NCBI RefSeq assembly: GCF_035594125.1
Contig: NC_087155.1
Coordinates: forward strand, 6,775,692-6,839,691
DNA length: 64,000 bases
DNA from: Scylla paramamosain
Taxonomy: Eukaryota; Arthropoda; Malacostraca; Decapoda; Portunidae
Direction: 5' to 3'
The position numbers and the translations under genes are program-made. Below are positions 49,532 to 61,703 of this stretch, one piece after another (position 1 is the stretch's first letter; the number at the start of each line of letters is the position of its first letter). The notes below the pieces were generated by a model. The model was given only the letters and a program-made list of their open reading frames with translations. It did no database searches and was not told the origin of the DNA.

Positions 49532-51689
49532 ATGGTCAGCTCCAGCAAGGTAGGCGGCAGGACGCTCGCGCACACTAACGTTCACCTCCACTCAGAGCAA
49601 CTCTTTTTTTTTTTTGCTGTGGACACGTTTACTGTGAATAGTGTTTCTCAAACAGTAGCCTGCACACGTGTCTTCATGACCGAGAACGGTGCACCAGCGA
49701 TCAACTTGGTTATAATAACACGTGTGTGTTTGTCTTAAAAAACAACCAACACTAAATCGTAAAGCCACAAAACACGAAACAGACACCTCACTTCTCCCAC
49801 TGAAGCAGGGTTTCGTGTTTTGTGGCTTGTGTGTGTGTGTGTGTGTGTGTGTGTGTGTGTGTATACTCGTACATATATATATATATATATATATATATAT
49901 ATATATATATATATATATATATATATATATATATATATATATATATATATATATATATATATATATAAACACACACACACACACACACACACACACACAC
50001 ACACACACACACACACACACACACTATAAAAAGCAAAATTTTCACATGAAAATTAATGTCCCTCACGTCTCGGTGTGTCACTTGAATATGTATAATGTTC
50101 CTGGAATCTTTTGTCCTCCGTCCTTTTCATCAAAGTCTATGATATACACCTAAAAACTTAACAGATGACCACATTGCAGCTTGTAATTTTATCTCTATTC
50201 CCTGCTGTACATCACAGGTAAACCAAAATCCTTTCTTTCTATAGGTGGCTGTGGTGGTGGTGGCGGTGATGGTGCTAATAGCGGCACTACTGACCGAGCC
50301 CGCCACTGCGAGCCCGGCGCTGCGTCTTGCATCTCGGTACCCTCGCAGGAAATCCTACAAGAACGTGAGTCCTATTGAATGGCCCAGTACATACACAAAC
50401 AACATCTGCACTTCCACTATAGTTTCCAAACTTTATTCGTTCACATCCATCTATTTAGCAGACTTTCAGTCTCATATCCTCTCAGATCTCCCGCCAGCCA
50501 AACTTACGTGGAAACTCGTCACCATTACAGTCTTTTTTCTGATGCTTTCAATGGGTTTCCTGCGCCTTTCTCTTCTCCATAATATTTGTTTAGTGGAAGG
50601 AGAGAGTAGCTGTAGCCAAGATTTTATTTGTTTATCTATATATTGGTCTTCTTTTCATGATGTTACATGATCACTTGATCGGCCGTGGCGGAAATAATGA
50701 ACCAACGACACATATATGACTTGTTTGCAAGTTAGATAAAGTATGTAGTATATTTTCAATGAAACTCAGTAATCTACTTATATTCATTTGCTTAACTTGA
50801 TGGATAAAGCATAATGCTGTGTTGAACCCAAGTACAACACCTGATGCTTTATTACGCCGACACTTTATCCAAATCAAATACAACAGTACATCTTCATACA
50901 TGTGCTATCCACCATGTAGTACAAGAGAGGTTGTAGTAGCAATGGAGTGCCTTAGGGAAGATATGATGGGCGCGTCATCCGTACTTCCCTTTGAGGATCC
51001 TGTGCCATGCCGCATGTAGAACTCACTAAAGCTCCAATGATATTGTCATAAAAATAAAATAAATAAATAAAAATTTTGCCCAGCTGCCTAGTTTGTCTCT
51101 CTTGCACATAGTGAGTGCACCACACTGTTAGTATTCCTCATTATTGTCTTGCCACCTACTCTTAGGCAGGGTAGGTACCTTCAAAGGACTTGTATTACCT
51201 CCCAATGAAAGACTGTACGCGTAAATATGTGACGAATTCTAATTTAGCCGCGCCCTTCTCTTACAGTACCCCTTGGCTGGGCTCCTACCACACAAAGTCC
51301 CCTGCTGCTGGTACGGCTATGACGCTGAAGGATTTTCAAGGTGGGTCTACATAATGCACTGATGTTCCTATATAGTACTGAGTATACGTACAGGTATGTT
51401 TACACATATAATCAAGATCATGATAACTTATCGAGTTCATATTCTTAAAGGCTCCTTATAAACGATAACAACGCAAGGTTAATGGAAGAATACTTTTTTC
51501 CCTTTTCTTTTGTTTAAGTGCAGACTCTTGTCAAATTTGTTCTCATACCGTTCGAACAGGAATTTTTATACATTATTTCGATATTGCGGAGGATACAAAT
51601 ATCCTGTTAACACACTCCATGATCTCTGCAGGAACGGGAGGGACTTGAGGCACCAGACCCCTGACATGGGGGACACTGGAGTCATGTGA
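49532..51689 (+). CDS. Putative secreted peptide precursor with a CCW core, paralog 1 (four exons, 89 aa)
   Basis: I do not recognise a named family. Exons 49532-49549, 50245-50364, 51267-51340 and 51632-51689 join by GT-AG introns (phases 0, 0, 2) into 89 codons plus TGA. Residues 1-6 are MVSSSK. Residues 7-22 are a hydrophobic run ([16 protein letters not shown]), followed by TEPATAS, which together look like a signal peptide cleaved near residue 28 or 29. The mature part contains a basic site at residues 40-42 (RRK), then the core [18 protein letters not shown] at residues 54-71 with vicinal cysteines 59-60, then a hydrophilic tail with NGR at 72-74. An AATAAA lies at 51794-51799, about 105 nt after the stop. 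The core exon recurs on the opposite strand at 57254-57327 with the same length and phase. A neuropeptide or small secreted hormone is an inference from signal peptide, size and basic sites; the receptor and function are unknown. The exact first exon is the least certain part. Confidence 0.78.
49828..50024. repeat. (TG)n-(TA)n-(CA)n palindromic compound microsatellite
   Basis: TG units (49828-49861), a short gtatactcgtac linker, TA units (49874-49967) and CA units (49969-50024) form a self-complementary block. It lies inside intron 1 of the CCW peptide gene on the plus strand. Confidence 0.95.
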
Positions 51690-51793
51690 TGTTCGGTGAG
51701 TCTGGCGGCACATTCACCTCTCGGCTCGACATGCTGTGTTTTGTGTTGATTCACTGATCGATGCATAGTAAATTATTCATGTCAGTGGTGTGG

Positions 51794-61300: not shown

Positions 61301-61703
61301 CAAAATAATGGTGATGGCTGGTGTGGTGCTTACCTCTAGGGTTTTCAGGTGTTTGTCAGATAGTGTGGACATCAGCAGGTTGAGGAGTGGGGACCCCTCC
61401 ACTGCCGATGCCGTCTCCACCATCATCATCACCACCACCACCACCACCTGAAAGCATAATAGTAAAGCGATTATATTCAAGTACACACATTCTGAGATTA
61501 ACCGATACGTTTTATTTAGATCTCTTCGTAGTCTGAAAATTAAGGAGATCAGTGAAGAGACGAGGATATACAGTACAGCTGCAAAAGCAAACCTTTGGGA
61601 CTGTCGCGTGTGCAATAGCCACCTGTTACCAAGAAGTATTACCCACATAAATAGAATCAACAAATGCGCAGTATCCTTGAAAACTCACTGAGCTTCTTAA
61701 CAT
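55361..61703 (-). CDS. Putative secreted peptide precursor with a CCW core, paralog 2 (four exons, about 71 aa)
   Basis: This is the minus-strand relative of the gene at 49532-51689. Exons are 61703-61689 (MLRSS), 61447-61334, 57327-57254 and 55373-55361, with GT-AG introns of phases 0, 0 and 2, the same pattern as paralog 1. Residues 6-15 (VVVVVVMMMV) followed by ETASA give a short signal-peptide-like start, with predicted cleavage near residue 20. Residues about 24-50 are leucine-rich and could form an amphipathic helix. The core PHEVPCCWHGYDAEGFTR spans residues 51-68 and matches paralog 1 at 15 of 18 positions. The third exon is 74 nt in both genes. The last exon is short (R-SSS-stop) and is chosen for its strong acceptor tttcttcatctacacgcag; it is the weakest call. 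If the third-exon donor were not used, TGA follows directly after the R, so the core would be intact either way. Function unknown. Confidence 0.75.
56777..56946. repeat. (CT)n(TA)n(CA)n compound microsatellite
   Basis: CT units, then TA units from about 56850, then a short CA tail. It lies in the third intron of the minus-strand CCW peptide gene. Confidence 0.95.
57939..57964. repeat. (TG)n
   Basis: Short run in the second intron of the minus-strand CCW peptide gene. Confidence 0.9.
58601..60340. mobile_element. Non-autonomous DNA transposon with about 200-bp terminal inverted repeats
   Basis: The ends are GCCCGTATAC and GTATACGGGC, flanked on both sides by CCTGG (58596-58600 and 60341-60345). 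The inverted repeats run about 58601-58802 and 60142-60340 and are roughly 90% alike by eye, including shared taaatgctaaaagtgtatac and taaaatctaaactcgct. A second inverted block, 59408-59453 against 60096-60141, continues the repeat after about 605 bp of extra sequence in the left arm. A (TG)n tract lies at 59611-59646. No transposase frame was seen. A 5-bp target duplication does not settle the superfamily. Confidence 0.8.

Follow-up and report, generated by a model that had tools for sequence, protein, structure and literature searches.

The window analysed here, a stretch of 64,000 nucleotides of Scylla paramamosain DNA (NC_087155.1, 6775692-6839691), carries two convergent genes of four coding exons each, with intron phases 0, 0, 2 in both. 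The plus-strand gene is composed of coding exon 1 (MVSSSK) at 49532-49549, exon 2 at 50245-50364, exon 3 at 51267-51340 and exon 4 at 51632-51689, and the minus-strand gene of exon 1 (MLRSS) at 61703-61689, exon 2 at 61447-61334, exon 3 at 57327-57254 and exon 4 at 56723-56714. An earlier note, made from the sequence alone, had described 74-nt third exons, tiny first exons (found to be 18 nt in the plus gene and 15 nt in the minus gene), second exons rich in valine (120 nt and 114 nt, respectively) and the same phase series. All of these were confirmed, with GT/AG at the intron borders, as were the peptides of both third exons; the fourth exons, for which that note gave no coordinates, are placed here. 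Both third exons encode the core PH[KE]VPCCW[YH]GYDAEGF[ST]R, which reads EILESLKPHEVPCCWHGYDAEGFT(R) in the minus gene, and the final arginine is split and completed by exon 4.

Protein searches yielded seven distinct proteins, three of an RF type and four of an RN type. The RF type consists of the window's own minus gene (P0001), a Portunus trituberculatus protein (P0002) and Eriocheir sinensis LOC127003750 (P0003). The RN type consists of the window's own plus gene (P0004), Eriocheir LOC127003748 (P0005), a 92-aa protein on a 2,084-base contig (P0006) and a Cherax quadricarinatus protein (P0007). None bears a functional name, six of the seven being labelled 'hypothetical' or 'uncharacterized' and P0006 having no name. 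P0006 may derive from a transcript, as a 92-aa protein on so short a contig suggests, and if so it would be evidence of splicing.

The plus gene precursor is 89 aa long, ends in ...SRNGRDL...M with a tail partly conserved in crayfish, and equals O3P69_002310 (P0004) across all 81 residues of that Scylla paramamosain model, including its start. The C-terminus of the model is eight residues shorter than exon 4 as drawn here; the longer exon was preferred because P0006 and P0007 have the same tail, that of P0005 having diverged. A TATA-like TATATG lies at 49470, approximately 60 nt upstream of exon 1, and an AATAAA at 51794 follows exon 4.

The minus gene precursor is 70 aa long, ends in ...TRFG-stop, with a predicted RF-amide C-terminus, and equals O3P69_002311 across 93% of the query. 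A TATAAA is present at 61819-61814 on the exon 1 side. The five-residue first exon is supported by the Portunus protein, which starts MIRSS and has a similar second exon. The alternative N-terminus of the Scylla model P0001 was looked for in the window and was not found. Exon 4 has only 10 nt, reads (R)FG-stop in agreement with P0001 and the Eriocheir protein P0003, and is located 530 nt past exon 3. Its acceptor is weak, with a poor polypyrimidine tract (3.6, compared to 7.4-9.1 for the other five acceptors), and 56723 is the sole AG|RFG-stop site among 8358 AGs on both strands of the window. The first candidate for this exon, at 53963 (RNG-stop), was ruled out by the RFG of P0001 and P0003 together with the unique acceptor at 56723. 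The acceptor at 53963 on the minus strand is a fair one, and its RNG-stop would repeat the residues that open exon 4 of the plus gene; AG|RNG-type sites occur four times on both strands of the window, and the match is probably due to chance.

The introns and spacer of the gene pair are crowded with long TA, CA and GA microsatellites (about 49830-50025, 52250-52370, 52694-52830, 55084-55230 and 56780-56955). Between the two genes, 53522-53857 on the minus strand resembles by eye the start of a LINE endonuclease, with no Pfam match. Intron 2 of the minus gene holds two inverted repeat arms of 207 nt (58596-58802 and 60138-60344), 89% complementary and 1335 nt apart, which look like a DNA transposon. 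Elsewhere in the window, a non-LTR retrotransposon reverse-transcriptase fragment was found at 33548-34120 on the plus strand, where RVT_1 was confirmed, and others were recognised by eye at 2644-3030 (minus strand), 5778-6938 (plus strand) and 36158-37024 (minus strand). An open frame at 29953-30336 on the plus strand contains a TPR-like segment resembling IFT88 and is probably an exon of an intraflagellar transport gene. Against PDB it had no match at E ≤ 0.001; at a loose limit IFT88 was matched along the full length of the 50 residues searched (E 0.29), ranking below a designed TPR protein (E 0.14), and Pfam TPR was below the cut-off. Scanning the window for Rfam families and for tRNA genes gave no match.

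When the plus precursor was searched against the window with tblastn, the core of the minus gene was found at E 5e-11, a similarity beyond chance. At the nucleotide level, 51288-51343 matched 57306-57251 (blastn, E 1e-7), and the similarity stopped at the splice donor. Comparison of 49000-54000 with 55000-62500 gave, at E < 0.01, two matches of simple repeats, one that covers exon 3 and its donor, and one at the repetitive valine-codon start of exon 2 (50243-50274), all other matches being at E ≥ 0.016. Across the 18 codons of the core, the genes differ at three first, no second and nine third positions (9 of 12 differences at third positions), giving pS 0.84 and pN 0.07 (Fisher p 2e-6, site counts rounded). 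Three amino-acid changes were observed compared to 7.5 expected if the same 12 changes were scattered (p 0.00035). Silent sites are thus saturated while the protein is nearly identical, and therefore both copies are under selection. In the genome search with the 18-residue core (1.21 Gb, 234 contigs), two candidates passed the first look, and the two matches were these two genes. Tiny exons are easily over-read, and the 53963 candidate did prove wrong; even so, the idea that chance open frames have been joined by plausible splice sites is hardly credible, in view of the selection on the core, of orthologues in which the segments encoded by these exons recur, and of an RFG-stop site that occurs only once, and it is already refuted for the core exons.

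The earlier note held that the pair arose by local inverted duplication. Two inverted paralogues are indeed present, but a recent origin is unlikely, because both types occur in Eriocheir and the core is saturated with silent changes. Scylla and Portunus belong to Portunoidea, Eriocheir to Grapsoidea, and Cherax is a crayfish. Provided that each type is a genuine orthologue group, a grouping inferred from a common spacer and C-terminus and not from a tree, the RN type would be older than the divergence of crabs from crayfish, and the duplication would be older than that of the two crab lineages. The RN/RF pair probably lies together in Eriocheir too, since the contigs of P0003 and P0005 are of equal size (19,743,373) and the LOC numbers are nearby.

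The core is conserved outside this locus, in Portunus, Eriocheir (both types), Cherax and P0006, so the lack of conservation that the earlier note had named as grounds for refutation is not what was observed. A profile search, in which the 7985 candidates sharing most words were scored, returned nothing beyond the seven proteins at E ≤ 1 and no insect protein, a result that limits, without excluding, a wider spread of the family. No significant match to the family was found in Pfam, PDB or NCBIfam; the matches of P0003 to XopL_C (E 0.18) and of P0005 to MFS_1 (E 0.0041) were under the Pfam cut-offs. The profile gave five matches against PDB, all at E 1.5-2.8; the weak 21-position match to metabotropic glutamate receptor 8 (PDB chains), a large receptor protein, is non-significant at E 2.7. 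Bacterial contigs gave at least 590 pattern matches, with five confirmed among the matches listed, all in Clostridia MAGs; four of these five are 901-913 aa long, and the frame of the fifth extends to the end of its locus. We take these frames to be penicillin-binding or transpeptidase-like, and the CCWYGYD match was put down to chance. Viral contigs gave 13 pattern matches, with none confirmed, and phage records gave none.

In an alignment anchored at PCCW (both precursors from the window, plus P0002, P0003, P0005, P0006 and P0007), the family core consensus was PH.VPCCW.GYD.EG[FY][ST]R, with two adjacent cysteines. Identity over the core amounted to 88/102 among RN-type proteins and 45/51 among RF-type proteins, and to 168/204 when the two types were compared. 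Between-type identity was 24/120 in the ten residues preceding the core and 19/192 further upstream. Exon 2 encodes a hydrophobic signal-like stretch, followed by the basic run RRK in the plus gene and rich in valine in the minus gene. By hydropathy and a -3/-1 heuristic both genes have a predicted N-terminal signal peptide, with small-residue sites directly past the hydrophobic start (ATA|SPA among other candidate cleavage sites in the plus gene, ASA|VEG in the minus gene). In an AlphaFold2 model (7 sequences; mean pLDDT 56.6, pTM 0.25), the only helix at least four residues long spanned residues 3-22, the signal region; no confident fold was predicted past residue 22, as a propeptide would give, which lends that assignment weak support. 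All of the aligned members have, close to the N-terminus, a hydrophobic run that is mostly rich in V, and this run with its single modelled helix would also suit short membrane proteins that keep the stretch as a transmembrane anchor. We regard this as very unlikely, however, because in each gene the small-residue sites lie directly past this stretch, and RN-type proteins have dibasic sites further on.

By eye, a dibasic RR or RK was seen right before [STQ]Y..[YF] in all four RN-type proteins. RNGRD followed the core in all four, one of them the window's own, so that an NGR amidation signal is predicted throughout the type. The tail past RNGRD was less conserved (24/72), P0005 being the most diverged. 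The RF type ended in ...[FY][ST]RFG-stop, again a predicted amidation signal, in two of three database proteins, the window's own P0001 and the independent P0003; the model of P0002 stops at TR. The earlier note makes no mention of these likely signals for amidation. Only P0003 had an upstream dibasic site (KK, by eye; 1/3). The predicted mature peptides contain only two cysteines, adjacent to each other, and the RN tail is partly conserved past the putative convertase site. Both features would also be compatible with secreted non-signalling peptides (antimicrobial, cuticle or seminal) in which the adjacent cysteines cross-link chains. We consider this unlikely, since the core appears to be conserved above what would be expected of immune or structural peptides, and the amidation glycines and RN-type dibasic sites stand at matching places.

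These findings argue that the two genes are probably ancient paralogues in a small family of decapod precursors for secreted, amidated peptides (hormones or neuropeptides). The secreted-peptide reading is favoured because of the exact gene anatomy, the purifying selection on the core, the relatives, the processing and amidation signals and the hydrophobic start. The signal peptide would be removed, leaving a variable spacer and the near-invariant core. The RN-type precursor would then be cut at the conserved dibasic site and after R-N-G-R and be amidated, giving a peptide of 30 aa ending in -RN-NH2, whereas in the RF type the gene-encoded terminal glycine would be amidated directly to give up to approximately 49 aa ending in ...CCWHGYDAEGFTRF-NH2. 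The adjacent cysteines could form a strained vicinal ring, link a second chain or stay reduced. The peptides would act as hormones or neuropeptides, probably via G-protein-coupled receptors. With last exons that end one copy in Asn-amide and the other in Phe-amide, the two would differ in receptor specificity. Secretion, dibasic and RNGR cleavage, amidation, disulfide state and receptor are all inferred. Several points count against parts of this scheme: the C-terminal cut of the RN type would be at R-N-G-R and not at KR or RR; two of the three RF-type proteins have no dibasic site upstream of the core; and the acceptor of minus exon 4 is weak, the P0001 N-terminus and P0004 C-terminus differing from the gene models here. 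In addition, the RN tail may not be removed and is perhaps kept on the peptide, because it is partly conserved to crayfish.

A bolder version, in which one paralogue had its last exon replaced, changing the receptor-facing end from Asn-amide to Phe-amide on a near-fixed vicinal-cysteine core, and in which this is a new arthropod peptide family whose pharmacophore is the adjacent cysteines and whose two receptors have diverged, is offered tentatively and is rather doubtful. The gene pair offers a natural experiment on whether a peptide with a fixed core might gain a new target when its C-terminal residue changes, it occurs in animals of aquaculture importance, and the family carries only 'hypothetical' or 'uncharacterized' labels in crabs and crayfish.

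The earlier note had called the family unrecognised. This stands for the RN type, which matched no named family in these searches, and for the absence of a significant Pfam or PDB match, but the minus gene may be the decapod CCRFamide. That family is known here by name only (Cys-Cys...RF-amide), which implies two cysteines and a C-terminal RF-amide. Judged by the name, the minus gene has this end (RFG-stop, amidation predicted) and the plus gene does not, having NGR instead; an Asn-amide end would be at odds with the name. Among decapods, PMC6158917 lists CCRFamide for Carcinus maenas and Procambarus clarkii, and PMC11673531 for Litopenaeus vannamei, as OP797901. It is therefore a real possibility, although we think it improbable on balance, that the minus gene is this already listed peptide and the plus gene an unlisted paralogue, with little that is new past a second copy. 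In passages of PMC3890597, however, CCRFa is placed among annelid and mollusc families, so the name may denote another cysteine spacing, and the profile search returned no insect protein, though passages of PMC12604039 and PMC10985886 list CCRFamide for cockroach and stinkbug, respectively. According to PMC6585902 it never occurs in Holometabola. A passage of PMC5141488 states that it was described by the study PMC4888303 and was undetected in Cherax eyestalk; CCRF was not found in the main text of PMC4888303. Neither CCRF nor CCW was found in the passages at hand of the Portunus neuropeptide paper (PMC8449533) and the termite and locust paper (PMC4237046). A keyword search of the literature listed no such peptide, and of the core strings tried in 5.39 million article texts, only VPCCW was found, in three unrelated papers (dental and hemp).

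Compared to known systems, the secreted, amidated peptide pair favoured here belongs to a family of peptide precursors whose kind is known but which in part is apparently unnamed. Its adjacent-cysteine core is unusual, as is the change of C-terminus from one paralogue to the other. The RF type shares with CCRFamide, by name, two cysteines and an RF-amide end in decapods, and differs in having the adjacent cysteines followed by Trp; the RN type lacks the RF end. Hyrg, a putative decapod neurohormone, is likewise a small precursor with a signal peptide and a single highly conserved stretch (PMC4888303) and is described there as having no classical convertase sites; its RFHYRGF, given in a passage of PMC7212414, is absent from both precursors. 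The CCHamide pattern XCXX[WYF]GXXCXGXH-amide, also from PMC7212414, does not fit either gene, the cysteines being adjacent in both. CCHamide, allatostatin-C and CCAP resemble the predicted peptides in being short and having one cysteine pair, and CCHamide and CCAP are also amidated, but their cysteines are spaced (GCLNYGHSCLGAH, CYFNPISC and PFCNAFTGC, respectively), in contrast to the adjacent pair found here.
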